Positions 35,640-58,667 of a stretch of DNA of 64,000 nt are shown piece by piece (within the stretch, counting starts at the first letter, position 1; every line of letters starts with the position of its first letter). The notes under the pieces are model-generated. The model was not told the DNA's origin. It made no database searches and saw only the letters and a program-made list of their open reading frames with translations. The translations under genes were made by a program, and so were the position numbers. Origin of the DNA: Zygnema cylindricum (Eukaryota; Streptophyta; Zygnematophyceae; Zygnematales; Zygnemataceae); assembly GCA_037447655.1 (NCBI GenBank), contig JBBHKE010000940.1, forward strand, positions 64,001 through 128,000, read 5' to 3'.

Positions 35640-36055
35640 TCAAATGGTGGGACAGCGACAGAGAGGTGGACAAGGAAAGAGAAGGCAAGAGAGAGGGACA
35701 GGGGATAGGGAGGGAGATGGAAAGGCGAAGGTGGTAAATGGGAAGGCGAAAGAGGGAGAGAAAGGGAGCTAAAAGGGGAGAAAGAGAGATAGAGGGAAAA
35801 CGGGGGGGGATAGGGGCTGAAAGGGAGAGAGCGAGAGGGAGAAGAAGAGGGGGGGAATGGGATTCAGGAAAGGAGAGGGAAAAGATGAAAGAGAGAAAGG
35901 GAAGAAAAGAGAGTGGACGAGGGAGAGGGAGGGACAAAGAGAGGGAGAAGGGGAGATGGGGATGGGGGAGGAAAAGAGAAATTACTAAAGAAGGGGAATG
36001 GAAGAGGAAGAGATAGGGAGAGAGGAGAGGAGAAAGAAGGTGGACGGAGATAGGA
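35640..36055. repeat. Purine-rich tract after the block A remnant
   Basis: GGGAGAG/GAAAGGGAG sequence homologous to 28845-29335. Non-coding. Confidence 0.88.
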
Positions 36056-36393
36056 AATGAGGAGCTTTTGGGGGTTACGGGTAAACGAACGAAACAGTTG
36101 AGTAGAAAAATTGTAGAGGTCCTAAAAGGTATCACAAACAGACTACAAATGAATAAACAAAGAAAACAACAACAAGGAAATAAGTAAAAACCATGAACCC
36201 TACAGGAAAAAACAATATTTTTGAGAGAGGTTGCGCGCCACACAAAAATTAAGAAATGCTCAGTGTGGATTCAGCAAATTGTACTATGTGAGGTCTCTAT
36301 AAAGCCATAGTAGGGGGTATGCAAGAAAAGGCCCTAGGGCCCAGATTGAATGAACTTCAGTGCAGCGATGAACTGGTGGTTCAATCAATACAA

Positions 36394-36581
36394 TACCCAT
36401 TGCTATTAGAGTCAATAACAATAATTATGTGGCGACATTTTTTTGGACGAAAATCATGTCAACACTATCTTTTGGGATAGAGGACAATCTTCCACACCTC
36501 CTTGTACAAAATTAGTACTACATATTTTTCATTTGCAGCGACACTTATACATCGTTAATGCTCACAACGATGGGCGGTGTA
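36394..36581. mobile_element. MITE, 188 bp, decayed left end (block A)
   Basis: The right end CAACGATGGGCGGTGTA is the canonical family terminus. The left end TACCCATTGCTATTAGAG is the same terminus with a small deletion. The interior matches the relic at 32070-32275. Confidence 0.65.
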
Positions 36582-36789
36582 CTTATTGAACCTTTATATT
36601 TCGCAAAGCATTGGTTGAATAGATTTCTATTTCGGATTGCAGGTTAAACTCTGCTCGTACGACTTCCGGAACCTGTTTAACCGAGTTCCTTTCGCATCCA
36701 AACATTTTATTTTTTTTCTATTTGTCATTAATGATTTTATTTCTTCTGTAACCGTGCGTTTAAGCTTTATTTTATCTGGATTGGACAAG

Positions 36790-36987
36790 TACACCGCCCA
36801 TCGTTTTTAGTGTTAACAACACAATTTCTGTCGCGACTTTTTTTGGCCAAAAATCACAAAATAGAGTTAACTACATTATTTAAGGAAGTGGACCAAAATC
36901 AGCCACGTTACCTTGCACTAAATTAGTATTATTAAATTTCGCATTTACACTAATTTTTCTTTAATACTAATAACGAAGGGCAGTGTA
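36790..36987. mobile_element. MITE, 198 bp, with related empty site in the window (block A)
   Basis: The left end TACACCGCCCATCGTTTTTA and right end GAAGGGCAGTGTA are imperfect inverted repeats flanked by TA. The homologous flank at 45590-46010 lacks the element and has a single TA at 45801-45802, which gives the pre-insertion site directly. Confidence 0.9.
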
Positions 36988-37149
36988 GTGACTGAGTTCA
37001 AATTTTTTGAAATTATCCAAGCTGGTTAATTTTCATCAACGCTGCAATTTCCCTAAATTGAAATTCAATGATTTATTTTGCATCCATTCATTTCCATTCC
37101 ATTCATTGGTGAATTGAGAATGAGATCGTGTATGCTACTGTAGGCGGTA

Positions 37150-37580
37150 GAGACCCTCAACCCCCTCTCCCTCCCCTCACTTCTCTTAGTGCTAGTTCCT
37201 CTCCGTGTCCCTCATCTTGTCCCTCTCCCTATACATCTCTCGCGTCCTCACCTTTCTCAACCCCTGTTTATTCCTCTCCTTGTCCCCCCGCTTCTTCCAC
37301 TCCCTCTCTCTATACCTCTGCGTTTCCCTCTCCTTTCTACTCACCCTGCTCGTTCCCTCTTCCTGTCTCTCTATTTTTCCCTTACCGTATTCTTATACAT
37401 TTCCCTCCCATTGTTTTCTCCTCTTACTATCCCTCTCCATCTCCCTCTCCCTCTCCCTCTCTCTCTCTCCTTCTCCCTCTCCCTCTCTCTGCCTCTCCTT
37501 CGCTCCATCCTCTTCTTCTCGTCAAACTCATCCCCTCACTCCCTCTCCATCTCCCCACTCCCTTCCCTCCACCTTCACCC
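37150..37580. repeat. Pyrimidine-rich tract upstream of expansin gene 2
   Basis: CCCTCTCC-type sequence almost lacking purines on the plus strand. Ser/Pro/Leu-rich frames across it are artefacts. An identical copy is at 52265-52695. Confidence 0.9.
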
Positions 37581-37866
37581 TCAGTGCGATGTGAAGGTGG
37601 CCACAGATGAAGAAGAAGAGAACACAAATGTCGACTTTGGACTTTTCCACAAAAAAGGGATTCATTTCGAATGTTGTCGAATCTGGACGGTCGAACTGAA
37701 AAAATCGAACGCTTCAAAAGTCCGTCTGCGTGTGTGAGATTCTGTTTTCGGAGCATGCGGAGCGATCGGACGGTCAGGATTTTCGTCGATCGGCTCGGCT
37801 GCTTGAACGGAGCGCCGGTCAACGAGAGTCAAAGTCTGGGCGGTTCGATTTGTCACTTTCCATCCT

Positions 37867-38145
37867 TTGGCAGGACGAGAGTCCTACTGTGGTCCACGCC
37901 TCTGTACGGATGCAGCGCATCGAATCCGAATGAAGGGCCGCACAGTCAAACCCGAAGACCCGTACGGAATGGACGTAGCTGACGACAAAGTGGAAGGCTG
38001 TACGGAATGGGCCCACTGGGCCACTTGCTTGTCAATAAGGGCAAATGTCCAGCGTAACGGAAGACTCTTCGTCAGCTTTGTCGTATGTGAAAATCGTAAC
38101 GGAGAACAGAAATTTTTCCTCCATCGAGTCATTTGTAACACATAA
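37867..38145 (+). other. Hypothetical frame upstream of expansin gene 2
   Basis: A 92-codon frame, preceded in the same phase by 37590-37737 (HFECCRIWTVELKKSNAS). It includes KPEDPYGMDVADDKVEGC and LFVSFVVCENRNGEQKFF. Composition looks protein-like and GC is above background, but no family is recognised and stop codons separate the pieces unless an intron intervenes. The copy at 52982-53260 is identical, so it gives no information about selection. Confidence 0.25.
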
Positions 38146-38607
38146 AATGATGCCACGTGCATATTTCTCGGTGGACAATCGGGCATCGCTGAAAGTTTTG
38201 TAAAAGTGAACCCGGGAAAAAAAATAGACGAGGACTAATAAAACGTCTACACTGTCACAAAAAATGTTTAACCACGAATGGTTCCGTACCATCGTTATTG
38301 TTGTTTGCGCTTTCGCGTTATTCTATAGACATACGTGGATTGTACTTTTGTACTATGTCATCATTCGGACAAGTTTCTTAGACACTTTCAATATTTCATT
38401 TCTTTTTTTATCTCCTGTAAACATTTTCTCTCCCCTGCCCGAGGACGGTGCGATTTGGTGACGTCGATTTTCGGGAGCCACGTGTACTCGTCGGTCCCTT
38501 GCCTCAAAGAGAAGCGACGTTTCATTTTCCGTTTGCGAGGCCGCAGTACTTCGCGCGCGTCCTTTGTCTTTTTGCGGTCAACGGACATTTGCCCTAAAGT
38601 TTGTCGA

Positions 38608-38872
38608 TGACGTCAAAACAATACCTTTCGTATTGTCCAGCTCGCTAGATGACGTCATTATATGCACCGTACGGCTGACTCCTCTGGATACGCTTCGAGT
38701 CCCAATGCGCAACAGTACAAATTGTAAAGCTGGCGACGGCGCTACGCTGACCTGCCAGCTCATTCCCTCATTTGTACGGCGATTCCGTACAGATCACGCG
38801 GAAAACCGGTAAGACAATCCACTTAGGTGAGTAGCCACGTGCGAGCAGCAAACTGGAGCCAGCACTATAAAT
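38608..38872 (+). promoter_or_regulatory. Promoter elements of expansin gene 2
   Basis: Two perfect TGACGTCA palindromes (38608-38615, 38650-38657; bZIP-type sites), CACGTG at 38836-38841 and TATAAAT at 38866-38872, 94 bp before the ATG. The CACGTG-to-TATA interval aligns with that of gene 1. A pyrimidine-rich leader (CTCCTCCGCTTCCCTCATC) follows. Confidence 0.65.
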
Positions 38873-38965
38873 TGCGCCAAAAAAAATCAAAAACACAATT
38901 TCCCTCTCTACGTTTCTCCTCCGCTTCCCTCATCTCCTCCAATTTCTACATTTTCCTGTCAACCG

Positions 38966-39769
38966 ATGGCGCTCGCCGCGACACGTGTCCTGGCCGTAGC
39001 GGCTCTGTCCCTGGCTCTCCTTTCAGCCAGCCACTGCGAGGCCGCCGCGTGGATCTCGGGCGGCACGTGGTTCTACGGCGAGCTGGACGGCGCGGCGGCC
39101 AACGGCGGCGCCTGCGGCTACAAAAACGTGACGGCTCTGTCCGGCTACGGCCTCAACACGGCGTCAGTTTCGTGGTTTCTGTGGGACAACGCCGGGATTT
39201 GCGGCGCCTGTTACGAAGTCAAGTGCGACGCGAACAAAACGACAAAGTGCAAATCGAACAGCAGCGTCGTCGTCACCGTGACGAACTTTTGTCCTGACTC
39301 GGCGCCCGGCGGATTCTGTTCCTGGGCGAACGCCTCGGTGTCGCTTACGAAGAAAATGTACACCGACATCTTTCCGGAACCGGGCAATTCGCCGTCTCCG
39401 TGGGTCCCGTCGCCAATCAGAATCCGCCGCGTCAACTGTACGAAGCCGGGATTCGCGAAAGTACGGATCGAAGAAGGGACGCAGGACAACTTTCTCTTGC
39501 TTACGATTTACAACCTCGCCGGCGCCGGCAATCTCCAAACCGTCCAAATCAGTTTTGACGGCGGGAAAAACTGGAGATCGATGTACCGTAATTGGGGTTC
39601 CGTGTGGTCGCTGAACGACGGAGATACGTACCGCGGGAAACCGTTCAGTTTCAGGTTGACGGCGAAAACGACAAACGAGACGGTTACGGCAGTTAACGTC
39701 GTCCCGGCGAAGTGGTTCACGAGGGCGATCTATACTTCGAAAGTCAACTTTAAATTGGCGCCGCCTTAG
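38966..39769 (+). CDS. Alpha-expansin-like secreted protein (gene 2)
   Basis: A 267-residue, single-exon wall-loosening protein. The signal peptide is residues 1 to about 26 (VLAVAALSLALLSAS, then CEA/AAW). The DPBB domain carries GGACGYKN, GICGACYEVKC, VVVTVTNFCPD. The CBM63 domain carries YNLAGAGNLQTVQISFDGG, MYRNWGSVWSL, FSFRLTAKTTNE and VVPAKW. As in gene 1, the HFD motif is replaced (WANASVSLTKKMY). At least six N-glycosylation sequons (NVT, NKT, NSS, NAS, NCT, NET) suggest a glycosylated secreted protein. GC-rich against its flanks. Compared with gene 3 the first 288 bases are identical and the rest carries about 14 substitutions, giving five residue changes. Confidence 0.96.
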   Translation: MALAATRVLAVAALSLALLSASHCEAAAWISGGTWFYGELDGAAANGGACGYKNVTALSGYGLNTASVSWFLWDNAGICGACYEVKCDANKTTKCKSNSSVVVTVTNFCPDSAPGGFCSWANASVSLTKKMYTDIFPEPGNSPSPWVPSPIRIRRVNCTKPGFAKVRIEEGTQDNFLLLTIYNLAGAGNLQTVQISFDGGKNWRSMYRNWGSVWSLNDGDTYRGKPFSFRLTAKTTNETVTAVNVVPAKWFTRAIYTSKVNFKLAPP

Positions 39770-40134
39770 AGGGAGGAGGAGAGAGGGGAAAAAGAAGTTA
39801 GCGGTCTGTTTTTGAGTTTCAGTTTGAAGATAATTAGGGGGAGGGAAAGCGTGGAGTGATTTTTTCGTTTGGTTTTGTTTTGAAGATGAATAGATTTCTT
39901 TTGGTTTGATAGGTTCCCGGTGTTTGAACGGTTTATAATGTTTAAACCATTTTTTCGTTTTGAAGGAAAGGGATAGGATTGATTTTGGAGTCATTTAGAG
40001 AGCTGGCTTGTTTTTTTTTTTCTTTTTCAGTTTTTTCAGTTTTTTAAGGGTTCGAAGGTATTTTGGGTTTTTAAATAAAGTGTCGGAGGACTTTTTTTGA
40101 GAGTCAATAAATTCCAAAATTTCCATGTTTAAAT

Positions 40135-40136
<2 letters not shown>

Positions 40137-40214
<78 letters not shown>

Positions 40215-40230
40215 CCTCTCCCTCTCCCTC
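40137..40230. repeat. (CT)n microsatellite
   Basis: Almost perfect CT dinucleotides followed by CCCTCT units. It is 12 bp longer than the block B copy (55248-55330), which accounts for the change in duplication offset. A third, shorter version is at 63543-63600. Confidence 0.95.
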
Positions 40231-40423
40231 TATCTCTCTCTCGCTATTTTTGTGAAAATTATTGGAACATGTAAAGCTACTTACTTTTTTGCCGTGTTTA
40301 TTCTGTAATCTTTTTCAGGTGTCCTTTGCTTAATGCTGCCTTGCTCTTCTATTGCCTGTATTAAATGTTTTTCCTATGCTACCAGTTTTTTATTTATTAC
40401 CATTTTCATAACTTTGTGGTGAA

Positions 40424-41515
40424 TGGGAGAGAGGGAGAGGGAGAGAGAGAGAGAGAGAGACGGGGATATTGGAAATGGGAAAGGGAGAGGGTGAAAGAGA
40501 GGAATGAAGAAAGAGAGGGAGAATTATCAGAAAATTGGAAGGGGGAAAGAGAGGGGTAGAGGAAGTGAGCGGGAGGGGAGGGGGATAGAGAGGGATAGAG
40601 AATTGCAGAGAGGAAAGGTGAGTGAGAGAGAGGGAAAGGGGGAGATATGGAGGAAGACGGGGAAATTGTGAGGGGTAAAGGTAGACGGGAAAAGAAGAGG
40701 GAGAGGGAGGGAGAGGGAAAGAGCAGGAGTCGGGGGGATGGAGGTGGACGAGAAAATGGGGAGAGGCAAAGGGGGAAGAGTTAAAGGGAGAGAGAGCGAA
40801 AGGAGGAAAGGAAGATGAGGAGAGAGTGGCAGGAGTAAAGTGAGGGAGGGGGAGTGGAAGAAAGGAAGGGAGACTGAGAGTGAGGGAGAGTGCTTAAGGG
40901 AGGGAGGCGTGGTGAGTGGGAGCGCAAGGGATAAAAGGAAAGTGGGCACACAGCAAATGGGGGAAAGTAAACGCTAAAGAGAGGGAATTGGAGGGAGATG
41001 GAGACAGAGGATTGACACAGAGAATGAGGGAGAGGGTAAGGGAGGACAGAGGGTGACCGGGAATGGAAGAGGTAGAGAGACGGGGAGAGGGAAAAGGAGA
41101 GATGTAGAACGGAAGAGAGGGTGGGAGACGATGAAAGAGGAGCGGGGAAAGGGAGTGGGGGAAATGGAGCAGATAGGGAGAGAGAAAATGAAAGTGGGAC
41201 GTAATGACAGAAAGGGATGAGAGAGGGAGGGAGAGGGAGAGGGACAGTGAGTAAGGAGGGCAATGGGACGACGGGAAATTTGGCGGGTGAAAGGAAGAGG
41301 GAGAGGGAGGAAGGAAGAAGTGGGGGAAAATGGTAAAGTTTGGGAGTGGGAGAGAGGGATGAAAACCAGGAAAAAGGGGGACGATAAGAGGTAAAAAGGA
41401 AAGATAGAGGGCAATGAGGAAGGAAGAGGGAGGGAGTGGGAGACGGGGAGAGGAAGAGTGGGATGTGTTTTCAGAGGGGGGGGAGAGACAGAAAGAGGGA
41501 GTCGTAAGGGAGAGC
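40424..41515. repeat. 1.1-kb purine-rich tract after expansin gene 2
   Basis: GGGAGAGAGAGAGA-type sequence with very few pyrimidines for about 1.1 kb. Long Ser/Pro/Leu frames on the minus strand are low-complexity artefacts. It could form intramolecular triplexes; that is inference. Confidence 0.92.
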
Positions 41516-41964
41516 CCTTCAATTTATTCTCTTCTTCAGTTGTTCATTTAAGTAATTTATGTGATATACTGTGTGGTGCGCGTGTGTGTTTGAAAGGGTC
41601 GTATATCAAACATAGAGTGCGCAGCACACAAGGGGAAGCAATAACCACTCATAATAAACAAACATTCACATCGCCATAACAAGAAGGCTTAGCACATACA
41701 CATTATTAGATGTAAATTTTTATTCACACACACACTCACATAAAACTCTACTCACTAATTCGGTCTCAAAAACCACCTAACACTAATAGTACTGTACCAC
41801 ACAAAAAAAATTAAAGACTGATTGCATAGTACCATGCACGTCATATGGAAAAGTGATACCTCGGACGAAACAAATCACCACCAATATTCAAAATTGACAT
41901 CAATAAAATTGAATCGACAAAAATATTCCGACTCGATCGATCTGTAGATGCGCCCAGTCAAGCA
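41516..41964. other. Intergenic spacer, no gene seen
   Basis: Contains a CACACACACTCACAC stretch near 41725. Nothing coding recognised. Identical in block B. Confidence 0.5.
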
Positions 41965-42180
41965 ATGTCTTATCATCCCCCTTCTCATTGTGGGTATCAT
42001 GACACACAGAACTACATCAAGCCTAACTTAGGCCTACCCCTAATAAAAACACCTTTCATTATTGACTTTGTAAGCACACTAGCGGCCTCCTCAACTTTAG
42101 GCACAAATAAAAACTCCAACTCCATATCCCTCATAAGATTTTTCAAAAAATACCATTGAATCCTCATGTGTTTAACCCTC
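41965..42180 (-). pseudogene. Copia RNase H C-terminal relic (block A)
   Basis: The minus strand reads IQWYFLKNLMRDMELEFLFV then a VLTKSIMKG-type end, matching the copia consensus for the last RNase H helix region (KHIDI...ELEYVPT...ADILTKAL). Stops and indels occur. 42181-43017 upstream on the minus strand is more decayed sequence, probably of the same element. Confidence 0.6.
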
Positions 42181-43078
42181 TTGTGAAACACGGATATTAA
42201 TCAAAGAAAAAGAACTTATGCTATCTGAAAAGAAATTCGTACACTAAACATTAACGCCCAATTCTTCTAACATTTCCTTAACCCAACTGTGCATTTGTAG
42301 CATAACATGCCCCAATGAATCCAGCCTGTATAGAAATCAATGCCATTGTCGGCAAAACACCAAACCAAGGCTCAAAGTATCAGCAAGTATTAGGAAGCAT
42401 CAAGAATAACCTCAATTCCCGAAATACAATTCACCTCTCTAATATCTGTAACCTTAAAAATGTTCACCCAAATAACTCTTCAATTCATTAATTTGATCCA
42501 ACTATTATCTGTATAAAGTGTAAATATGATTTGAACTTCACTTACACCTTTCAAATAGACGGAAATTATCCTTACAAGAGCAAAATGTGTCCAACATTTA
42601 TATAGTTTCAAATTTCTGGTCCTCAATGCCTTCATCACACCATAAAGCGGTAGCCGCCAAGTTTTGCATTCACCCCTTTCTAAAAATATCATATAAACTG
42701 TTCGACGGAGCTTAGGCATTGGCTAGGATTGTCTTGGGCGGCGTGGGAATATATAACAAGTCGAAAATGAAGTTTAATACATTTTTCCTTCGAAAAAAGA
42801 TCGTGGAAATTAATGTTTTCTTCTAACTTAAATTTAGACTTGATAAAATAATCTAAAATAGAGAAATGAGGATTTTGCATTGGAAACCTCTACAACTATT
42901 CATTTGTTATAATAGTTAAGAGAGGAGATCCCTATAGGGAGAGAGATAAGTGACTTTTGAATATGAATGTCTGATTGTGGGTTTTCCAATTGATGGACTA
43001 AGTAGATGTGGATGAATGTCGTTGTTAAAATTCCTAGAATTGGGGGATAGAATGGAAGATCCCAATAAAGGGATTGAT

Positions 43079-43149
43079 GAGCCGGCCAAGATTTGAACCT
43101 GGGACCTTTCACTTTAGATGCGAACGCACTACCACTGTGCCACAAGCTC
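43079..43149 (-). ncRNA. tRNA-like cloverleaf inside the TRIM LTR (block A, intact copy)
   Basis: On the minus strand 71 bases fold as a complete cloverleaf. The 7-bp acceptor stem is GAGCTTG with CCGGCTC (one mismatch, repaired in the partner LTR), the D stem GCAC/GTGC and the anticodon stem TTCGC/GTGAA around ATCTAAA. A 5-nt variable loop and T stem CCAGG/CTTGG around TTCAAAT follow. Internal pol III boxes are TGGCACAGTGG (A) and GGTTCAAATCTTGG (B). TATATAAAA lies about 24 bp upstream (43173-43181). The nominal anticodon is CTA, which would read UAG, so it is probably not a working tRNA. Confidence 0.8.
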
Positions 43150-43366
43150 ACATGTTACGCTGGTGGGTCCAATTTTATATAGGTATTTAGAGTGGATTTT
43201 ACCACAATTCCTCCTATCGATCGCACGTTTTACGTACGTCAACACCCCCTCTCGAGAGGTTGCCGGTCATAATTGTCTATGTAAACCTGGTCCCCCTGGC
43301 TTTGATACCATGTTAAGGTTCCTAGAATCGGGGGATAGAATGGAGGATCCCAACAAAGGGATTGAT

Positions 43367-43464
43367 GAGCCGGCCAAGATTTGAACCTGGGACCTTTCAC
43401 TTTAGCTGCAAACGCGGGACCTTTCACTTTAGCTGTGAACGCACTACCACTGTGCCACCAGCTC
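43367..43464 (-). ncRNA. tRNA-like sequence in the second TRIM LTR, with 27-nt insertion
   Basis: Same module as 43079-43149, with a fully paired acceptor stem GAGCTGG/CCGGCTC. The anticodon-arm segment (GGGACCTTTCACTTTAGCTG on the plus strand) is tandemly duplicated, which breaks the cloverleaf. A and B boxes persist. Confidence 0.75.
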
Positions 43465-43564
43465 ACATGTTACGCTGGTGGGTCCAATTTTATATAGGTT
43501 TTTAGAGTGGATTTTACCACAATTCCGGGTATCGATCGCACGTTTTACGTATGTCAACGGTCGT

Positions 43565-44559
43565 AATGTGACTTTACGAGAGTACGAAAAGCGTGTTGCA
43601 TGATATCAAAGATTTGGTTAGAAGTCAAGGAGATATGTGCTCACCCAAAAATCGAGTGCCTTGACTTATAAGGGTGCCCTAACCCGAAAGAAAGAACGAA
43701 ACCAAAATATGAAGTGGGAGGAGGTTGGTGGGAAATTAAGTGGTCACATCACTAGGGGCTGGTGATAAGATGTGGGCCTTAGGTCAAATGGACTAAGGCA
43801 GTGTGGGCCGTGTAACCAAAATTGAATCCCACTCCAATGACCTAGAAGCTAAGCAAACATAACTTCACCTGGTAATGATTCATGTGTGGAGGTAAGGCTT
43901 AGAGCCAAAAATGATCAGCATGTGATTCTGGAGTGGTGGGAGAACAGGAAACTTGATAATGAAGGAAAAAAAAAGTGGAATTTAAGTTTTCGGAGAAAGT
44001 GAGTCTTAAAATCACTTAAAACTGTGGAAAACCATAACTTTGTGACTTTTGGAAGCTACATCATTTTACCTCAACAAAGTTTGATGGAAAATTATGTTTT
44101 TCTGTTTTAATGTTATAAAAATGTAGAATTGATACCTAATTTTAGCTTTTATTTACTTATTTATTTGTTACTTGTATTATTTTATTGATTCTATAAATTT
44201 GATCTTTGAAGAAGAAAATTGCTAGGAGGAGGAGATTGGAGAAAATTTGGGAAATTCAAATCCTAAGCAAGCATTTATGGATAATTACATGCTATCCTGT
44301 TTTTTTTTTGTTCTTTGTTCGAATGGTAATGGCTTATTCTACATGGAAACTTGAAAAAGGAAATAGTTTGAAAGTGTTCAAGAAAATCTTTGCAAATTAA
44401 ATTAGAAGAGTTAAAGATCATTTGAATGACGTTGATAAGACAATGTCAACATTTATAAATGTATTGAAAAATGTTAAAGAAAATGGAATGTTTCAAACCA
44501 AAAACTGGATAAGTCAATCAATTAAACGACCTTGTTTTCTCCGAATAATAATTTTCCCA
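43565..44559. other. Intergenic DNA, no gene seen
   Basis: A short frame (44206-44400) and the following 44.4-44.5 kb read like a decayed coding relic but match nothing recognised. Confidence 0.4.
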
Positions 44560-44760
44560 GATGGAACTTAAGGCCAGCCTCTTGAAGTGTGTAAAACACC
44601 TGTATACTCCGAGAAAGTTAGTGAGAAAATAATCACATCATCAATGTAAGACGTTGCACAATCTACCTCTTCCAGAGCTTCATCCATAGCCCTTTTAAAT
44701 TTTGCGGGGGCTTTTTTTAAGACTAAATGGCATGTAAAATTTTCATACAAACTGGTTCCC
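44560..44760 (-). pseudogene. Gypsy reverse transcriptase relic (block A)
   Basis: Minus-strand residues KKAPAKFKRAMDEALEEVDC and YIDDVIIFSLTFSEY are the Ty3/gypsy fingers-palm region around the catalytic YIDD. Flanks are too decayed to extend. It is a different element from that at 14.6-21.7 kb. Confidence 0.85.
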
Positions 44761-45589
44761 CCCGAAAATTGGTCCTTTTCCTGTGAGTGGGCTCCAAAGG
44801 CGGATTTTCATAATATCTAACATTGTTGAGAAAATCTTTTGCCATTTTTTTACTCATTTCTAGTTGTTGTGTTTTTCGTGTCATGTAACCTTGTATAAGT
44901 TTTTAGTGTGAATGCTATAAGAGGGTATTGGCAACTAACTTTCCTTATAAACACTTTGGAAATCGTGGTCGATGCGAATTCACACTTTATCTCAAGATAG
45001 TGGATGGTGTTGAAAAGTAAGATGATATGGAAACATTGAAAACGGAACAAATGGTTTTTCTAATGCAAAAACTAAGAATTTATAATAATATGAAAACTCA
45101 TATATTTAAAGTTTGTGGAATTTGAGGATTTAACGAGGCATCTTCATAAGCAGTTCAACCTCTAAACCACGAAGACAAGAATTATCACCCTTTTATCCAG
45201 AGCATTAAAACACAAAAAAAAAATTATAAGAGTCTTTATACGCCCAAGATCCGAAAAAAATAATAATGCCCGATACTAACTCCATGATATCCACCTAATG
45301 ATCTCTATGTAGGATGTGCATTGGAAAAGTCCTAACATTAAAGTATATGGAGGCAGGCAAAGTCTTGGAGGTAATTCACTTATAAGGTTGAAACCGGATT
45401 TTTTTTTCAATCTTATCAATTTTAATATATCGCGTGATTTATAATGTTTGGTTTTCCATGGTCCCGTGTATCATGTTGTTTTATATCACAGGTGGACAAT
45501 ACTCAAATAATTTTGCTCATACCATCTTTTGATGTTTTGGGCAAATATGGCCTACGGTTCTCCTTTTTGGTTTTTTTCAAATTACGGAC

Positions 45590-46010
45590 GTCACCTTTGC
45601 TTATAGCTTTGGTTGAATCAGTACTTAGTTTTTTTGGGTGTTTTAATTCCGCTCATACGATTTTCAGAACTTGTTAAACCGAGTTTTTTTCAAAAAGGTG
45701 TTTCGCATCCTAACGTTCTACTCTCTTTCAAATTTTCATTGATAATTTTATCGCGTCTTTTCTCATGGGTTTAAGCTTTACATTTTCTAGATTGACCAAG
45801 TAGTGACTGAGCTCAAAGTTTTTGAAGTTATCCAAGCTGGTTAATTTTCATCTGCACTGCAATTCCCCTAAATTGACATTCAATGATCTATTTTGCATCC
45901 ATTTATTCGCAGTTTCATTTTTGGATTAAGAATGAGATCGTGGATGCTACTGCTGATGGTAGAGACACTCTCACCCAACCCTCTCCCTCCCCTACCTCCT
46001 CTTTATTGTT
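45590..46010. repeat. Dispersed copy of the expansin 5' flank, without the MITE
   Basis: Homologous to about 36600-37170: ATCCAAGCTGGTTAATTTTC, TTCAATGAT-TATTTTGCATCC and GAATGAGATCGTG-ATGCTAC. It lacks the 198-bp MITE and has a single TA at 45801-45802. 44.76-45.59 kb before it shows nothing recognisable. Confidence 0.85.
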
Positions 46011-46187
46011 TCATAAACTTTGGTTTCACAGTAAAGCGTATGTGAGAGAGAGGTCAAGGACTAAGAAAATATGAAATTCTACACAAGAGAAATATCAATG
46101 CATTGGAGAGCGAAATTGATTTGTACTTGGGATGATTTCATTAAGTGAGAAAAGTCACATAAACATCATACACAGTGCTAATTACGC

Positions 46188-46702
46188 TGGAGTCTAAGGG
46201 GGCTCTCGATGCGCTGTAACAAAAAGGATCCTAGTCTAGCTTCTAATTAATGTGTTCGAGACTTTACATAACAGATGTTACGACTAGATTCTACTTTATG
46301 TAGTATACATTCTAACGTATGTAGTCTAGAGTCAAAAGGATTGACTTTGGGGCGGCAATGTACAGAGGTCTTTTAGACCTAAAGTAACGACGTAGAGTCA
46401 AGCGACAAAAAGTACGATGACGGAATTAAAATACAAAAGAAAATCATAAGAAAGAGAAATAAACATACGTAGTACAAACATAGAGACCGTCGCCCAAAGG
46501 ACTTGTATGTAGGGCATGCGACTGGACCGACGCATACGGCACGACTCGACCAACGGATGTACGAACAAGACCAAAATATAGTCGCCCAAAGGACTTGTAC
46601 GTAGGGGGACAAGATTGGACCGACGCATGTAATGACAAGTACAGATAGGACCAAAAGTGACAAAAAGTCAAAAGGTGAACCAATGCGAAATAACCCTTAA
46701 CA
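46188..46702 (-). mobile_element. Copia LTR, minus-strand element (block A)
   Basis: Read on the minus strand, the polypurine tract CTTGAGGGGGG is followed by TGTTAAGGGTTATTTC, the LTR start. Coding sequence lies on the higher-coordinate side, so this is the 3' LTR. The outer end is approximate. Internal near-repeats (CGTCGCCCAAAGGACTTGTA and GTCGCCCAAAGGACTTGTAC) lie about 95 bp apart. Confidence 0.75.
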
Positions 46703-46916
46703 CCCCCCCTCAAGCAAAAACTAGGAAGTAGATTGAGATGAAAACAAAGGAAATTTAGCTAGAAGGAGAAGGAAGAGGAAGGCCAGGAGGAGAGTCGATG
46801 ATGCTCAAATTGAGGGCGATGAAGAGCCTTGGTGAGATAATAGGCCACTTTGTCGGAGGATTTCACATAAAGATCCGGAGAGTGCCATCTTCGACCCGCT
46901 CTTGAGAGTAATGATA

Positions 46917-47702
46917 CTAAATGTCGATGTGCTTCGTCCTTTTGTGGTGAACTAGATTGCGGATCAAAGCAGGGGCTCCTTGGGAATCGGAAAATATAAG
47001 AGTAGGAGCCGAAGAGGGAAATCCAAGATTAGAAAGTAAAGTGCGAAGCCAAACAGCTTCCTTGGCGGCATGACAAGCGACCATGTATTCCGCCTCAGTG
47101 CTACAGCATGCGGTGGTTGGTTGCTTTTTACATGACCAAGAGATAAGACCACTGCCCAAAGAGAAGCACGCGGTGGTTGGTTGCTTTTTACATGACCAAG
47201 AGATAAGACCACTGCCCAAAGAGAAGCACGATCCAGTGGTGGAACGGCGAGAAAGCTCATTCTGCGCCCAATCTGAATCAACAAAACCCGTAAGAGCAGT
47301 AGAGCCACAAAAGGAGTATATGAGACAAAGAGTTTTAATGCCCTATAGATAACAAAAGACACGTTTGGCTACCGTAAGATGATCAAGGGAAGGACGTTGG
47401 AGAAATTAACTAGTGACAGTTGTGGCAATGTCAAGGCCGGTGGCTTGCATGGCGTACATAAGCGCCACGACCATCGAGTCGTTAGAAGCATAGAGGGAGG
47501 GGGAGAGAACGTAGTCAATGTAAGGGAGGTAAGGGGCATTGGCATTCAAAGGAGTGGAAAAAGGGGAGCACTCTGCCATGCCAAAGCGTTCCAAAAGATC
47601 AGAGATAAAGGACTCTTGAGAGAGAGGGTGCGAGTTGAGCGGTTACAATAAACGTGAATGCCCATATAATAAGTGAACTCAACTAGATCGGCCATGTCAA
47701 AA
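46917..47702 (-). pseudogene. Copia RNase H and RT end, truncated at the duplication edge (block A)
   Basis: Minus-strand RNase H carries CCSTEAEYMVACHAAKEAVW, LRTLLSNLGF, FSDSQGAPALIRNLVHH and RTKHIDI. The upstream RT end carries AECSPFSTPLNANAPYLP. A perfect 60-bp tandem duplication (47110-47169, 47170-47229) repeats SLGSGLISWSCKKQPTTACF in frame. Homology to block B stops at about 47702, cutting the RT. Confidence 0.92.
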
Positions 47703-48971
47703 TGAGTCTGTGAGAGAGATAGGACTTAGAAAAATTAGAAGATAGGACCCCCTCTCCCAAAGAGCTTCTGTACAAAAGGTCAACTTTGACCCTCCATAAC
47801 TTACTGCTCAGGGGAGCAAATTCAGAGATTTTTTTTGCTACCGACTTAGGGGAGTCTTGCCTTTACAGGAGTGGAGGTGGTCAGGATTTTTGTCTGCTAG
47901 GGTGGCAGTTATTTTTGCTGGAACACAAAGGGGTCAGGATTATCCTAGAGGCTTCTTAGAAGTTGTCTACTCTGAGGACTTATGGAGGTCTCAGAGTTTC
48001 AGGTACAATATCAACTCACAATAATTAATTGAACAGTAATATCTGGCCTAGTCCCAACACTCAAACCCATAAAACTCTCAACTGCTTCCCTATAAGGAAC
48101 ATCAACCTTGGGGCTCTTAACGAAATTAGAAAGCTTGTCACGAGGATCGTGAGGAGTTCCAAGTTGTTTGCAATATAAGAACTCCAAATCTCTCCAATAA
48201 ATCGTTTGCATACTTTTATCACCTTAACTTGATGTCTTCATTCTTCTTTCTCTAAATTTGAATTTCCATAATATATTGTGCGTCCCCTAAGTTTGTGATG
48301 ATGTCTCAATTCTTAATGGAGTGAGGGCTCTTTGCGGTGCAAGTATTTTGGCAGGTGCAAGTGATACCTTTAGTTTGAGTTCATCTCAGCCCATCCATAA
48401 TGCCTCTGATCTCGCACACAACAACAAATGTACGAATTTGTGTTTTGTAGGTGCTTGCTATTACCTCTCATGTATTGTTTGTGTTGTCCCTATTCTAGCT
48501 AAGGTTGTCCTTAAGGTGGACGATGGTCTCTTACTTTATCAAGAAGACCTCTCACCTCGTGTAGTATTGTCGCGCGACCATTAAAATAAAGTTTCAGCTC
48601 TTGAATCTCTCATTGCTAACACTAAATTTCGACTACAACAACGCATCTTTGTGTAAGTAGTTACCGTTTAGATTCGAAACCCCTTTTGCTGAATTACGTG
48701 CTCGTTTACGTTGTGTGTTTAGCTTGAGGCTGGTGCATGGCTAAAACCACACTAATTTTTTTGACACTCCGATTATAGCATGTCTAATTTGCATTTTCTT
48801 TAAGATGATGGTCTGTCTTACCTTACCCTACGCTTTTCGAGGGATAAGTGTTTTCAACCAACATATTGATGTTGAACAAGTATCTTTATATCCCCTCTCA
48901 CTTGTCGAGAAACTAATCACCATACAAGATTTGGTGTGAGGTGCAATTGTTGCCATAGCCATTGAGAGAGG

Positions 48972-50709: not shown

Positions 50710-51175
50710 ATGGTGGGACAGCGACAGAAGGTGGACAGGGAAAGAGAAGGCAAGAGAGAGGGACAGGGGATAGGGAGGGAGATGGAAAGGCGGCGGTGGT
50801 AAATGGGAAGGCGAAAGAGGGAGAGAAAGGGAGCTAAAAGGGGAGAAAGAGAGATAGAGGGAAAACGGGGGGGGATAGGGGCTGAAAGGGAGAGAGCGAG
50901 AGGGAGAAGAAGAGGGAGGGAATAGGATTCAGGAAAGGAGAGGGACAAGATGAAAGAGAGAAAGGGAGACGAGAGAGTGGGAAAGGGAGAGGAAAAGAGG
51001 GAAAGAGAGAAAGGGAAGCAGAGAGAGTGGACGAGGGAGAGGGAGGGACAAAGAGAGGGAGAGGGGGAGATGGGGGGTGGGGGAGGAAAAGAGAAATTAC
51101 AAAAGAAGGGGAATGGAAGAGGAAGAGATAGGGAGAGAGGAGAGGAGAAAGAAGGTGGACGGAGATAGGAAATGA
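50710..51175. repeat. Purine-rich tract after the block B remnant
   Basis: Counterpart of 35640-36055, slightly longer through an extra GGAAAAGAGGGAAAGAGAGA segment. Confidence 0.88.
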
Positions 51176-51508
51176 GGAGCTTTGGAGGGTTACGGGTAAA
51201 CGAACAAAATAGTTGAGTGGCAAAATTGTAGAGTTCCTAAAAGGTATCACAAACAGACTACAAATGAATAAATAAAGAAAAAAACAACAAGGAAAAAAGT
51301 AAAAACCATGAACCCTACAGGAAATAACAATATTTTTGAGAGAGAGTGCGCGCCACACAAAAATAAAGAAATGCTCAGTGTGGATTCAGCAAATTGTACT
51401 CTGTGAGGTCTCTATAAAGTCATAGTAGGGGGTATGCAAGAAAAGGCCCTAGGGCCCAGATTGACTGAACTACAGTGCAGCGAAGAACTGGTGGTTCATT
51501 CAATACAA

Positions 51509-51696
51509 TACCCATTGCTATTACAGTCAATAACAATAGTTATGTGGCGACATTTTTTTGGACGAAAATCATGTCAACACTATCTTTTGGGATAGAGGAC
51601 AATCTTCCACACCTCCTTGTACAAAATTAGTACTACATATTTTTCATTTGCAGCGACACTTATACATCGTTAATGCTCACAACGATGGGCGGTGTA
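51509..51696. mobile_element. MITE, 188 bp (block B)
   Basis: Counterpart of 36394-36581 with the same decayed left end. Confidence 0.65.
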
Positions 51697-51904
51697 CTTA
51701 TTGAACCTTTATATTTCGCAAAGCATTGGTTGAATAGATTTCTATTTCGGATTGCAGGTTAAACTCTGCTCGTACGACTTCCGGAACCTGTTTAACCGAG
51801 TTCCTTTCGCATCCAAACATTTTATTTTTTTTCTATTTGTCATTAATGATTTTATTTCTTCTGTAACCGTGCGTTTAAGCTTTATTTTATCTGGATTGGA
51901 CAAG

Positions 51905-52102
51905 TACACCGCCCATCGTTTTTAGTGTTAACAACACAATTTCTGTCGCGACTTTTTTTGGCCAAAAATCACAAAATAGAGTTAACTACATTATTTAAGG
52001 AAGTGGACCAAAATCAGCCAAGTTACCTTGCACTAAATTAGTATTATTAAATTTCGCATTTACACTAATTTTTCTTTAATACTAATAACGAAGGGCAGTG
52101 TA
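51905..52102. mobile_element. MITE, 198 bp (block B)
   Basis: Counterpart of 36790-36987, nearly identical; its empty-site relative in block B is at 60904-60905. Confidence 0.9.
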
Positions 52103-52264
52103 GTGACTGAGTTCAAATTTTTTGAAATTATCCAAGCTGGTTAATTTTCATCAACGCTGCAATTTCCCTAAATTGAAATTCAATGATTTATTTTGCATCC
52201 ATTCATTTCCATTCCATTCATTGGTGAATTGAGAATGAGATCGTGTATGCTACTGTAGGCGGTA

Positions 52265-53260
52265 GAGACCCTCAACCCCCTCTCCCTCCCCTCACTTCTC
52301 TTAGTGCTAGTTCCTCTCCGTGTCCCTCATCTTGTCCCTCTCCCTATACATCTCTCGCGTCCTCACCTTTCTCAACCCCTGTTTATTCCTCTCCTTGTCC
52401 CCCCGCTTCTTCCACTCCCTCTCTCTATACCTCTGCGTTTCCCTCTCCTTTCTACTCACCCTGCTCGTTCCCTCTTCCTGTCTCTCTATTTTTCCCTTAC
52501 CGTATTCTTATACATTTCCCTCCCATTGTTTTCTCCTCTTACTATCCCTCTCCATCTCCCTCTCCCTCTCCCTCTCTCTCTCTCCTTCTCCCTCTCCCTC
52601 TCTCTGCCTCTCCTTCGCTCCATCCTCTTCTTCTCGTCAAACTCATCCCCTCACTCCCTCTCCATCTCCCCACTCCCTTCCCTCCACCTTCACCCTCAGT
52701 GCGATGTGAAGGTGGCCACAGATGAAGAAGAAGAGAACACAAATGTCGACTTTGGACTTTTCCACAAAAAAGGGATTCATTTCGAATGTTGTCGAATCTG
52801 GACGGTCGAACTGAAAAAATCGAACGCTTCAAAAGTCCGTCTGCGTGTGTGAGATTCTGTTTTCGGAGCATGCGGAGCGATCGGACGGTCAGGATTTTCG
52901 TCGATCGGCTCGGCTGCTTGAACGGAGCGCCGGTCAACGAGAGTCAAAGTCTGGGCGGTTCGATTTGTCACTTTCCATCCTTTGGCAGGACGAGAGTCCT
53001 ACTGTGGTCCACGCCTCTGTACGGATGCAGCGCATCGAATCCGAATGAAGGGCCGCACAGTCAAACCCGAAGACCCGTACGGAATGGACGTAGCTGACGA
53101 CAAAGTGGAAGGCTGTACGGAATGGGCCCACTGGGCCACTTGCTTGTCAATAAGGGCAAATGTCCAGCGTAACGGAAGACTCTTCGTCAGCTTTGTCGTA
53201 TGTGAAAATCGTAACGGAGAACAGAAATTTTTCCTCCATCGAGTCATTTGTAACACATAA
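52265..53260 (+). other. Pyrimidine tract and hypothetical frame (block B)
   Basis: Identical counterpart of 37150-38145, including the unrecognised 92-codon frame at 52982-53260. Confidence 0.5.
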
Positions 53261-53722
53261 AATGATGCCACGTGCATATTTCTCGGTGGACAATCGGGCA
53301 TCGCTGAAAGTTTTGTAAAAGTGAACCCGGGAAAAAAAATAGACGAGGACTAATAAAACGTCTACACTGTCACAAAAAATGTTTAACCACGAATGGTTCC
53401 GTACCATCGTTATTGTTGTTTGCGCTTTCGCGTTATTCTATAGACATACGTGGATTGTACTTTTGTACTATGTCATCATTCGGACAAGTTTCTTAGACAC
53501 TTTCAATATTTCATTTCTTTTTTTATCTCCTGTAAACATTTTCTCTCCCCTGCCCGAGGACGGTGCGATTTGGTGACGTCGATTTTCGGGAGCCACGTGT
53601 ACTCGTCGGTCCCTTGCCTCAAAGAGAAGCGACGTTTCATTTTCCGTTTGCGAGGCCGCAGTACTTCGCGCGCGTCCTTTGTCTTTTTGCGGTCAACGGA
53701 CATTTGCCCTAAAGTTTGTCGA

Positions 53723-53987
53723 TGACGTCAAAACAATACCTTTCGTATTGTCCAGCTCGCTAGATGACGTCATTATATGCACCGTACGGCTGACTCCTCT
53801 GGATACGCTTCGAGTCCCAATGCGCAACAGTACAAATTGTAAAGCTGGCGACGGCGCTACGCTGACCTGCCAGCTCATTCCCTCATTTGTACGGCGATTC
53901 CGTACAGATCACGCGGAAAACCGGTAAGACAATCCACTTAGGTGAGTAGCCACGTGCGAGCAGCAAACTGGAGCCAGCACTATAAAT
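53723..53987 (+). promoter_or_regulatory. Promoter elements of expansin gene 3
   Basis: Two TGACGTCA sites (53723, 53765), CACGTG at 53951-53956 and TATAAAT at 53981-53987, identical to gene 2 in sequence and spacing. Confidence 0.65.
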
Positions 53988-54080
53988 TGCGCCAAAAAAA
54001 ATCAAAAACACAATTTCCCTCTCTACGTTTCTCCTCCGCTTCCCTCATCTCCTCCAATTTCTACATTTTCCTGTCAACCG

Positions 54081-54884
54081 ATGGCGCTCGCCGCGACACG
54101 TGTCCTGGCCGTAGCGGCTCTGTCCCTGGCTCTCCTTTCAGCCAGCCACTGCGAGGCCGCCGCGTGGATCTCGGGCGGCACGTGGTTCTACGGCGAGCTG
54201 GACGGCGCGGCGGCCAACGGCGGCGCCTGCGGCTACAAAAACGTGACGGCTCTGTCCGGCTACGGCCTCAACACGGCGTCAGTTTCGTGGTTTCTGTGGG
54301 ACAACGCCGGGATTTGCGGCGCCTGTTACGAAGTCAAGTGCGACGCGAACAAAACGACAAAGTGCAAAACGAACAGCAGCGTCGTCGTCACTGTGACGAA
54401 CTTTTGTCCTGACTCGGCGCCCGGCGGATTCTGTTCCTGGGCGAACGCCTCGGTGTCGCTTACGAAGAAAATGTACACCGACATCTTTCCGGAACCGGGC
54501 AATTCGCTGTCTCCGTGGGTCCCGTCGCCAATCAGAATCCGCCGCGTCAACTGTACAAAGCCGGGATTCGCGAAAGTACGGATCGAAGAAGGGACGCAGG
54601 ACAACTTTCTCTTGCTTACGATTTACAACCTCGCCGGCGCCGGCAATCTCCAAACCGTCCAAATCAGTTTTGACGGCGGGAAAACTTGGCGATCGATGTA
54701 CCGGAATTGGGGTTCCGTGTGGTCGCTGAACGACGGCAATACGTACCGCGGGAAACCGTTCAGTTTCAGGCTGACGGCGAAAACGACAAACGAAACGGTT
54801 ACGGCAATTAATGTCGTCCCGGCGAAGTGGTTCACGAGGGCGATCTATACTTCGAAAGTCAACTTTAAATTGGCGCCGCCTTAG
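54081..54884 (+). CDS. Alpha-expansin-like secreted protein (gene 3)
   Basis: A 267-residue, single-exon near-duplicate of gene 2 with the same signal peptide, DPBB and CBM63 landmarks and the same HFD replacement. Residue differences from gene 2 are Ser to Thr in KCK(S/T)NSS, Pro to Leu in GNS(P/L)SPW, Asn to Thr in GGK(N/T)WRS, Asp to Asn in NDG(D/N)TY and Val to Ile in TA(V/I)NVV. The Thr in KCKTNSS is the state also seen in gene 1. The frame is intact, so both copies could be expressed; the promoters are identical. Confidence 0.96.
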   Translation: MALAATRVLAVAALSLALLSASHCEAAAWISGGTWFYGELDGAAANGGACGYKNVTALSGYGLNTASVSWFLWDNAGICGACYEVKCDANKTTKCKTNSSVVVTVTNFCPDSAPGGFCSWANASVSLTKKMYTDIFPEPGNSLSPWVPSPIRIRRVNCTKPGFAKVRIEEGTQDNFLLLTIYNLAGAGNLQTVQISFDGGKTWRSMYRNWGSVWSLNDGNTYRGKPFSFRLTAKTTNETVTAINVVPAKWFTRAIYTSKVNFKLAPP

Positions 54885-55245
54885 AGGGAGGAGGGGAGAG
54901 GGGAAAAAGAAGTTAGCGGTCGGTTTTTGGGTTTCAGTTTGAATAGAATCAGGGAAGGGAAAGCGTGGAGTGATTTTTTGGTTTGGTTTTGTTTTGAAGA
55001 TAAAGAGATTTCTTTTGGTTTGATAGGTTCCCGGTGTTCGAACAGTTTTTGATGTTTAAACGTTTTTATCGTTTTGAAGGAAAGGGATTGGATTGATTTT
55101 GGAGTCGTTTAGAGAGCTGGCTTGTTTTTTTTTTTCTTTTTCAGTTTTTTCAGTTTTTTAAGGGTTCGAAGGTATTTTGTTTTAAATAAAGTGTCGGAGG
55201 ACTTTTTTTGAGAGTCAATAAATTCCAAAATTTCCATATATATAT

Positions 55246-55247
<2 letters not shown>

Positions 55248-55317
<70 letters not shown>

Positions 55318-56618
55318 CCTCTCCCTCTCCCTCTATCTCTCTCTCGCTATTTTTGTGAAAATTATTGGAACATGTAAAGCTACTTACTTTTTTGCCGTGT
55401 TTATTCTGTAATCTTTTTCAGGTGTCCTTTGCTTAATGCTGCCTTGCTCTTCTATTGCCTGTATTAAATGTTTTTCCTATGCTACCAGTTTTTTATTTAT
55501 TACCATTTTCATAACTTTGTGGTGAATGGGAGAGAGGGAGAGGGAGAGAGAGAGAGAGAGAGACGGGGATATTGGAAATGGGAAAGGGAGAGGGTGAAAG
55601 AGAGGAATGAAGAAAGAGAGGGAGAATTATCAGAAAATTGGAAGGGGGAAAGAGAGGGGTAGAGGAAGTGAGCGGGAGGGGAGGGGGATAGAGAGGGATA
55701 GAGAATTGCAGAGAGGAAAGGTGAGTGAGAGAGAGGGAAAGGGGGAGATATGGAGGAAGACGGGGAAATTGTGAGGGGTAAAGGTAGACGGGAAAAGAAG
55801 AGGGAGAGGGAGGGAGAGGGAAAGAGCAGGAGTCGGGGGGATGGAGGTGGACGAGAAAATGGGGAGAGGCAAAGGGGGAAGAGTTAAAGGGAGAGAGAGC
55901 GAAAGGAGGAAAGGAAGATGAGGAGAGAGTGGCAGGAGTAAAGTGAGGGAGGGGGAGTGGAAGAAAGGAAGGGAGACTGAGAGTGAGGGAGAGTGCTTAA
56001 GGGAGGGAGGCGTGGTGAGTGGGAGCGCAAGGGATAAAAGGAAAGTGGGCACACAGCAAATGGGGGAAAGTAAACGCTAAAGAGAGGGAATTGGAGGGAG
56101 ATGGAGACAGAGGATTGACACAGAGAATGAGGGAGAGGGTAAGGGAGGACAGAGGGTGACCGGGAATGGAAGAGGTAGAGAGACGGGGAGAGGGAAAAGG
56201 AGAGATGTAGAACGGAAGAGAGGGTGGGAGACGATGAAAGAGGAGCGGGGAAAGGGAGTGGGGGAAATGGAGCAGATAGGGAGAGAGAAAATGAAAGTGG
56301 GACGTAATGACAGAAAGGGATGAGAGAGGGAGGGAGAGGGAGAGGGACAGTGAGTAAGGAGGGCAATGGGACGACGGGAAATTTGGCGGGTGAAAGGAAG
56401 AGGGAGAGGGAGGAAGGAAGAAGTGGGGGAAAATGGTAAAGTTTGGGAGTGGGAGAGAGGGATGAAAACCAGGAAAAAGGGGGACGATAAGAGGTAAAAA
56501 GGAAAGATAGAGGGCAATGAGGAAGGAAGAGGGAGGGAGTGGGAGACGGGGAGAGGAAGAGTGGGATGTGTTTTCAGAGGGGGGGGAGAGACAGAAAGAG
56601 GGAGTCGTAAGGGAGAGC
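55248..56618. repeat. CT microsatellite and 1.1-kb purine tract (block B)
   Basis: Counterpart of 40137-41515. The CT run starts within an ATATATATAT stretch here instead of ATGTTTAAATAT. Confidence 0.92.
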
Positions 56619-57067
56619 CCTTCAATTTATTCTCTTCTTCAGTTGTTCATTTAAGTAATTTATGTGATATACTGTGTGGTGCGCGTGTGTGTTTGAAAGG
56701 GTCGTATATCAAACATAGAGTGCGCAGCACACAAGGGGAAGCAATAACCACTCATAATAAACAAACATTCACATCGCCATAACAAGAAGGCTTAGCACAT
56801 ACACATTATTAGATGTAAATTTTTATTCACACACACACTCACATAAAACTCTACTCACTAATTCGGTCTCAAAAACCACCTAACACTAATAGTACTGTAC
56901 CACACAAAAAAAATTAAAGACTGATTGCATAGTACCATGCACGTCATATGGAAAAGTGATACCTCGGACGAAACAAATCACCACCAATATTCAAAATTGA
57001 CATCAATAAAATTGAATCGACAAAAATATTCCGACTCGATCGATCTGTAGATGCGCCCAGTCAAGCA

Positions 57068-57283
57068 ATGTCTTATCATCCCCCTTCTCATTGTGGGTAT
57101 CATGACACACAGAACTACATCAAGCCTAACTTAGGCCTACCCCTAATAAAAACACCTTTCATTATTGACTTTGTAAGCACACTAGCGGCCTCCTCAACTT
57201 TAGGCACAAATAAAAACTCCAACTCCATATCCCTCATAAGATTTTTCAAAAAATACCATTGAATCCTCATGTGTTTAACCCTC
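57068..57283 (-). pseudogene. Copia RNase H relic (block B)
   Basis: Identical counterpart of 41965-42180. Confidence 0.6.
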
Positions 57284-58120: not shown

Positions 58121-58667
58121 GTCGTTGTTAAAATTCCTAGAATTGGGGGATAGAATGGAAGATCCCAATAAAGGGATTGATGAGCCGGCCAAGATTTGAA
58201 CCTGGGACCTTTCACTTTAGATGCGAACGCACTACCACTGTGCCACAAGCTCACATGTTACGCTGGTGGGTCCAATTTTATATAGGTATTTAGAGTGGAT
58301 TTTACCACAATTCCTCCTATCGATCGCACGTTTTACGTACGTCAACACCCCCTCTCGAGAGGTTGCCGGTCATAATTGTCTATGTAAACCTGGTCCCCCT
58401 GGCTTTGATACCATGTTAAGGTTCCTAGAATCGGGGGATAGAATGGAGGATCCCAACAAAGGGATTGATGAGCCGGCCAAGATTTGAACCTGGGACCTTT
58501 CACTTTAGCTGCAAACGCGGGACCTTTCACTTTAGCTGTGAACGCACTACCACTGTGCCACCAGCTCACATGTTACGCTGGTGGGTCCAATTTTATATAG
58601 GTTTTTAGAGTGGATTTTACCACAATTCCGGGTATCGATCGCACGTTTTACGTATGTCAACGGTCGT
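58121..58667 (-). mobile_element. TRIM with tRNA-like LTR modules (block B)
   Basis: Counterpart of 43018-43564. The GTCGT target duplication is at 58121-58125 and 58663-58667, and the LTRs are 58126-58347 and 58414-58662. The tRNA-like modules are at 58182-58252 and 58470-58567 on the minus strand. Confidence 0.93.

Follow-up and report, generated by a model that had tools for sequence, protein, structure and literature searches.

A probable Helenus-type TRIM family with tRNA-like units in its LTRs, and mosaic arrays that join it to sister families in a plant-type genome

The window, i.e., the whole stretch of 64,000 nucleotides that was analysed, carries between two copies of the pentanucleotide GTCGT an element of 537 bp by sequence reading, which runs in minus sense from 43559 to 43023 (Table 1). 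Self-comparison shows that its two LTRs are 93–94% identical within aligned blocks, and its 5' LTR starts with CGTTGA where the family has TGTTGA. Sequence and self-comparison together bear out the TRIM anatomy that a first-pass annotation had proposed, i.e., a GTCGT target duplication, two LTRs, an initiator-Met primer site flush with one of them, a polypurine tract, and an interior of only 66 bp. We take the primer site TGGTATCAAAGCCAGG to match the complement of the plant initiator-Met tRNA 3' end at all positions but one; some other copies carry the variant TGGTATCAGAGCC. The annotation had also seen a cloverleaf-capable unit in each LTR and had suggested a covariance-model check. In this check, each LTR yields a minus-strand tRNA match above the Rfam cut-off of 29 bits. 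The 3' LTR unit is moreover called tRNA-Pyl by ARAGORN. The claim stands less well for the 5' LTR, whose unit is split by a 27-bp duplication and receives no ARAGORN call. The motif TATATAAAA, expected about 24 bp before the cloverleaf, is present, at a measured spacing of 23 bp.

Table 1. Coordinates, in the window, of the features of the element and of its second copy.
Feature	Position	Strand	Basis and remarks
Target site duplication GTCGT, left copy	43018..43022		Sequence; 5-bp duplications across the family
3' LTR, 222 bp	43023..43244	-	Direct repeat; ends match family TG..CA
tRNA-like unit of 3' LTR, boxes A and B, anticodon loop ATCTAAA	43078..43149	-	Rfam RF00005, 54.9 bits
TATATAAAA in 3' LTR	43173..43181	-	Sequence; ends 23 bp upstream of cloverleaf
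Polypurine tract GAGAGGGGG	43245..43253	-	Sequence; abuts 3' LTR; other copies have a G-rich tract here
Interior, 66 bp	43245..43310	-	No room for a protein of the pathway
Initiator-Met primer binding site TGGTATCAAAGCCAGG	43295..43310	-	Sequence; flush with LTR at 43311
5' LTR, 249 bp	43311..43559	-	Direct repeat; 27-bp tandem duplication inside tRNA-like unit
tRNA-like unit of 5' LTR, split by 27-bp duplication	43366..43464	-	Rfam RF00005, 47.9 bits
TATATAAAA in 5' LTR	43488..43496	-	Sequence
Target site duplication GTCGT, right copy	43560..43564		Sequence
Second identical copy	58121..58667	-	Self-comparison; 100% over 547 bp, flanks identical too

The second copy is carried by a tandem segmental duplication of ~11.9 kb (35867–47720 vs 50980–62823, 99.3% identity). 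Since it lies inside this duplication and shares its flanks with the first, the window holds one insertion and not two. The same duplication also carries an expansin-like ORF (38831–39769 / 53946–54884). At the locus L053, positions 671–919 form a 5' LTR that equals the window's 5' LTR in length (249 bp), perhaps by the same duplication or by a source relation. Elsewhere in the window, a region on the minus strand resembles an LTR retrotransposon (13039–23855, direct repeats 13445–14317 / 22983–23855, 97%), and its ORFs match a C5 DNA methylase (PF00145), RNase H, and, weakly, a zinc knuckle and an integrase. This order is Gypsy-like, with what would be a captured DNA methyltransferase; the charophyte Klebsormidium nitens is reported, in the text accessible to us, to have a Gypsy element that includes a DNA methyltransferase (PMC5890265). 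A reverse transcriptase ORF, probably LINE-like (3889–6951), is preceded by a tandem repeat of 6-bp period (3060–3488, ~430 bp).

We searched the assembly from which the window comes (352.8 Mb, 2689 contigs) and found at least 46 matches to the whole element, at least 75 to the LTR, and at least 40 to the interior. As the best 40 candidates were scored in each search (of 836, 809, and 108, respectively), these counts are lower bounds, biased to copies near the query. Removing repeats left 67 stretches from 63 loci, or 62 stretches after merging those with like flanks. This family, hereafter family A, comprises complete copies, solo LTRs, and tandem arrays; most complete copies measure ~510 bp among the matches listed, against 537 bp in the window. 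The first-pass annotation had predicted further copies with target duplications and had named their absence as a ground for dropping its reading. Many copies were in fact found in this assembly and, among the matches listed, exact 5-bp duplications directly abut the LTR ends in 26 of the 31 complete (LTR-interior-LTR) copies, in 7 of 11 solo LTRs, and in 3 of the 5 arrays that have at least three LTRs. Stretches missing an outer end show none (0/20), and shifted control positions give 22/3433. Merging stretches with shared flanks changes these values little (complete 26/31, solo 6/10, arrays 3/5, missing end 0/17). The LTR pairs of the 31 complete copies, among the matches listed, have a median identity of 95.5% (range 86.9–100%), so that transposition persisted until recently. 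Viral contigs scanned with a pattern of primer site and interior gave no match. A search of the assembly for the RuBisCO large subunit gave no match either, though a plant-type primer site and expansins are present; removal of organelle sequence may account for this.

The tRNA-like unit belongs to the family as a whole. The LTR alignment has 101 rows, i.e., 100 distinct full LTRs and the window LTR again, LTR matches that do not cover query positions 8–215 being excluded, and the unit occupies LTR positions 96–167 in sense. Box A is found in 92/101 rows and box B in 79/101. Both boxes, in order, occur in 71/101 rows in sense, in 0/101 in antisense, and in 3 of 5050 mononucleotide-shuffled LTRs, so that their arrangement is not due to chance; the placement of the boxes on the sense strand, already proposed, is thereby confirmed. 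One or both boxes, as defined, are missing from 30/101 rows. A nearly interior-only query, which exerts no selection for the unit, led to 30 loci (from 40 matches listed, some at the same place), and the LTR alignment spans the unit in all 30. Thus, we are not dealing with a SINE insertion that is private to this element and was copied from one LTR to the other, and relatives without the unit, which the annotation had envisaged as a refutation, did not appear. Some family A units are decayed. Rfam RF00005 gives 49 matches at 40–58 bits (47 in family A LTRs, and one each in the families B and C described below) in 35 of the 40 loci scanned, and recognizes no unit in the other five (L019, L031, L040, L049, and L056). 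ARAGORN reports at least one tRNA, as Lys, Pyl, Asn, Val, and others, in 55/59 loci, a list in which three places are entered twice, and none in four (L031, L056, L065, and L079). We also observed an inverted repeat CCACCAG..CTGGTGG at LTR sense positions ~78–104 (window 43141–43167), which leads into the unit; it is exact in 63/101 rows, has one change in the window 3' LTR, and would compete with the acceptor stem.

Is this unit a tRNA in the decoding sense? Position 33 is U in decoding tRNAs. Of 100 LTR rows here, 91 have G, 7 have A, and 2 have T, both T rows being the window's own 3' LTR, counted twice. The absence of U33 from 98/100 rows indicates that the unit is not maintained as a decoding tRNA, and, judging from sequence, a role in decoding is unlikely. 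A functional or suppressor tRNA was rejected on the same ground. The idea that LTRs spread working tRNA genes (ARAGORN names Lys-CTT and a suppressor-like CTA) can draw on the Rfam scores and the retained cloverleaf, and we nevertheless regard it as extremely improbable. Besides the loss of U33, the anticodon drifts among CTT, CTA, ATT, TAC, and others, and a mismatch of isotype is also described for many Helenus families in the accessible text of Kojima 2024 (PMC10886601).

What has been kept is the fold. Across 18 units drawn from A, B, and C, the paired cells amount to 97.1%, and 10/21 pairs have changed on both sides, in a set which leans to intact units because its members were picked among those recognized by Rfam, ARAGORN, or eye. 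Within family A alone, a C-G pair of the D-stem has become U-A in L039 and L052. Single-strand folding of the window's two units is not stronger than that of shuffled sequence (z of -0.69 and -0.55), so that fold energy alone is uninformative, whereas the pair counts across families are informative. Conservation within family A is middling (mean majority of 0.942 in the unit, against 0.926 at LTR positions 1–65, 0.950 at 66–80, 0.900 at 81–95, and 0.968 at 168–222) and gives no support for a special short-term constraint on the unit.

The annotation had supposed that a TRIM with a tRNA-like unit in its LTRs would be an unprecedented class. Such elements have already been described under the name Helenus, in fungi, animals, and one plant, Selaginella moellendorffii, and the name TRIMp3 was proposed for TRIMs with a pol III promoter (Kojima 2024, PMC10886601, in the text accessible to us). 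In open-licence literature, we found TRIMp3 in no other transposon paper, and nothing on Helenus TRIM retrotransposons from 2024 onward besides Kojima 2024. Set beside that description, the window's element is very probably a Helenus-type TRIM, i.e., a non-autonomous LTR retrotransposon. It is non-coding, has two LTRs, and is shorter than 1000 bp (537 bp, in a Helenus range of 311–1263 bp). A tRNA-like unit with boxes A and B, recognized as RF00005, lies in both LTRs here too, with primer site and polypurine tract beside the LTRs. The 26/31 complete copies with 5-bp duplications, among the matches listed, agree with the 5-bp duplications of plant and fungal Helenus. Boxes A (92/101) and B (79/101) persist where U33 (2/100) does not, decoding features being lost as in Helenus, and solo LTRs and tandem arrays (the latter in a zebrafish family) occur in both. 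All these likenesses refer to the text of Kojima 2024 as accessible to us (PMC10886601). There, the LTRs of the Selaginella element measure 120 bp and its interior 85 bp, against 222 and 66 bp in the window family. Family A is thus, by comparison with the published description, a new Helenus-type family in a plant-type genome. Cassandra is also close, in that it, too, is a TRIM whose LTR contains the pol III promoter of a small RNA, and has a Met primer site and tandem arrays (PMC10853983, PMC7215508, accessible text). Its LTR, however, carries 5S rRNA, whereas an Rfam scan of the whole window finds tRNA only.

The unit probably is a pol III promoter, a use which we infer from its boxes. In the explanation that we favor, it would serve, through boxes A and B, as an internal pol III promoter assisted by the upstream TATA. 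Transcription would begin close to the 5' edge of the 5' LTR unit and continue into the 3' LTR, by which the unit would become the repeated R region. Reverse transcriptase and integrase would come from an autonomous LTR element sharing the cell, probably a Copia, given the 5-bp duplications and the primer site. A unit that has a cloverleaf and lacks U33 would then be a promoter and an RNA fold rather than a decoding tRNA. Kojima 2024 expects pol III transcription of Helenus, likewise as an expectation rather than a demonstration, and has fungal Helenus mobilized by autonomous Copia (PMC10886601, accessible text).

The TATA itself can be read in another way. TATA[AT]A is retained in 99/101 LTR rows, and family A could be an ordinary pol II TRIM in which TATATAAAA sets the RNA start ~25–32 bp downstream, the unit being passive captured sequence. 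A TATA-to-start spacing of ~25–32 bp is suitable for pol II initiation. An upstream TATA is used by plant tRNA genes as well, so that this motif does not decide between the two polymerases. The pol II reading gains from the fact that the unit is not the best-conserved part of the LTR in family A, and from Asteraceae TRIMs related to Cassandra which, in the text accessible to us, have a TATA box and no 5S promoter (PMC10853983). It is weakened by the covariation of the cloverleaf pairs and by the comparison of families A and B (two B copies), which are alignable just at LTR positions 75–167, i.e., the unit and ~20 bp before it, at 78–79%, the LTR outside giving no alignment. We hold it to be doubtful. 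The observations that count against our preferred pol III explanation include the middling conservation of the unit in family A, the rows that lack one or both boxes, and the loci in which Rfam or ARAGORN recognizes no unit. TATATAAAA could, moreover, serve pol II, and TTTT stands immediately behind the unit in family B (L103:4116–4119, L081:1240–1243) and ~12 bases behind it in family C (L092:1455–1458), where it would be a pol III terminator site that shortens the RNA. Family A has TTTT at a comparable place in just 5/101 LTR rows. The depletion of T4 runs was also tried as a proof of pol III and set down as weak. Such runs occur in the presumed transcript of 5/40 copies (0.125 per copy vs 1.07 in shuffled sequence), but one ancestral sequence would lack T4 by chance with a probability of ~0.34 (Poisson estimate).

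The origin of the unit is a separate matter. Kojima 2024 proposes, in the text accessible to us, the insertion of a SINE2 as the origin of Helenus (PMC10886601). The unit could still be such a passenger, inserted in one ancestral TRIM LTR and carried along with its function not required. The tRNA-like unit of family C, which differs, has been counted in favor of this view, and indicates that there was probably more than one capture. As a description of the present state, it is weakened by the fact that the unit persists both among family A copies and in all three families A, B, and C; moreover, inspection by eye around the unit noticed no SINE body or SINE target duplication. We find it rather improbable in that form, while a SINE insertion as the origin is compatible with our preferred explanation. 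Family A shares with SINE2 the tRNA-like head with boxes A and B. It differs in having LTRs, a primer site, a polypurine tract, and fixed 5-bp duplications, which show integrase-dependent movement of the LTR type. SINEs have no LTRs, and their movement by the target-primed reverse transcription of LINEs leaves duplications of variable length.

Family A is accompanied by sister families. Two further TRIM families, B and C, were found joined to family A copies, and a family D, seen once, is probably also a TRIM family; B, C, and D are known solely from pieces joined to A. The LTR of family B starts with TGTTGGATTGG and has a tRNA-like unit related to that of A. In family C, the LTR starts with TGTTGGAGGAATG and the unit is a different one. 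The single occurrence of family D has the LTR start TGTTGAGGCC, an LTR end that was not found in it, and a unit that looks decayed by eye. The mosaic arrays are L101, L102, L103, and L062; L063 is a near copy of L062 and was not counted again. Reading the tables by eye in sense, we counted nine family switches in these four arrays. Six of the nine lie exactly at the junction of LTR end and primer site, none at the junction of purine tract and LTR start, and three leave inside an LTR. In L103, the order is a B LTR piece, an A interior from its ninth base, an A LTR, a B interior, a B LTR, a C interior, and a C LTR. A single ATATT target duplication stands on both sides of this whole B-A-B-C array, which was, therefore, probably joined before integration. 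L062 starts with a chimeric LTR that is C until the box B region of its unit and then A; the GGGAG that flanks this array counts little as a duplication since it lies in a GGGAG-rich stretch. L063 shares the 5' flank of L062, has a different 3' flank, and shows no match between its outer ends. No usable outer duplication was found at L101 and L102, so a clear one exists in just one mosaic array (L103) of those examined. The array L102 ends (L102:4103–4156) with 32 bp of A interior, behind which stands a 24-bp piece of A LTR in inverted orientation, and this end looks like an aberrant reverse-transcription end.

These arrays may be explained if reverse transcription of sister families with a common primer site takes place within shared particles. 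A plus strand ending in a copy of the primer site would anneal to the complement of this site in a different family, which would give the junction of an LTR end with a foreign primer site, and repeated rounds would build arrays before integration. Switching of the reverse transcriptase within the tRNA-like unit would produce the chimeric LTR. The model is thinly based, as it depends on one array with a clear duplication. We put at roughly 35% the full reading, i.e., that tRNA-bearing TRIM families with at least two independent tRNA heads are co-packaged, exchange sequence at the primer site and the unit, and form arrays before integration. Alternatively, separate elements were inserted first, and ectopic recombination between them then produced the mosaic arrays. 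L063, with the 5' flank of L062 and another 3' flank, speaks for this, and illegitimate recombination is one of the two possible mechanisms for tandem LTRs in the accessible text of PMC11899658. However, recombination between two loci would not leave the matching outer 5-bp duplication of L103, and the exact position of 6/9 switches at the LTR end and primer site also speaks against it. We, thus, consider ectopic recombination unlikely.

Arrays of at least three LTRs with one 5-bp target duplication have been described before, also for TRIMs (Gao et al. 2016, PMC4717578; PMC11899658), and template switching has been named as a possible origin of arrays (Kalendar 2020, PMC7215508). The 2025 study (PMC11899658) reports single-family tandems with the look of single insertions and continues to regard either mechanism as possible. 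In the text of these papers accessible to us, tandem arrays are treated by subfamily or as highly similar repeats, whereas those described here unite families with unrelated LTRs. PMC11899658 chose highly similar repeats and filtered out more complex arrays, and the word tRNA is absent from the main text of Gao 2016 (PMC4717578) as accessible. Multi-family mosaic arrays likewise do not figure in the accessible text of Kojima 2024 (PMC10886601), and our searches of open-licence papers, which had a wider aim, found no report of arrays uniting different tRNA-bearing TRIM families.

The class itself being known, the remaining interest of these elements is in the co-resident families and their mosaic arrays. 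They widen the range of Helenus to a genome with several coexisting tRNA-bearing TRIM families, perhaps that of a streptophyte alga near land plants, and automatic tRNA gene counts in such genomes may be inflated by them. The mosaic arrays and the outer duplication are relevant to the question whether the formation of tandem LTR elements precedes or follows integration, and multi-family arrays pinpoint the exchange sites, which single-family arrays cannot do. If the co-packaging reading is true, switching at box B would swap promoter halves between families, as in the chimeric LTR of L062 and L063, and the tRNA-like unit would be at once a pol III promoter and a recombination hot spot.
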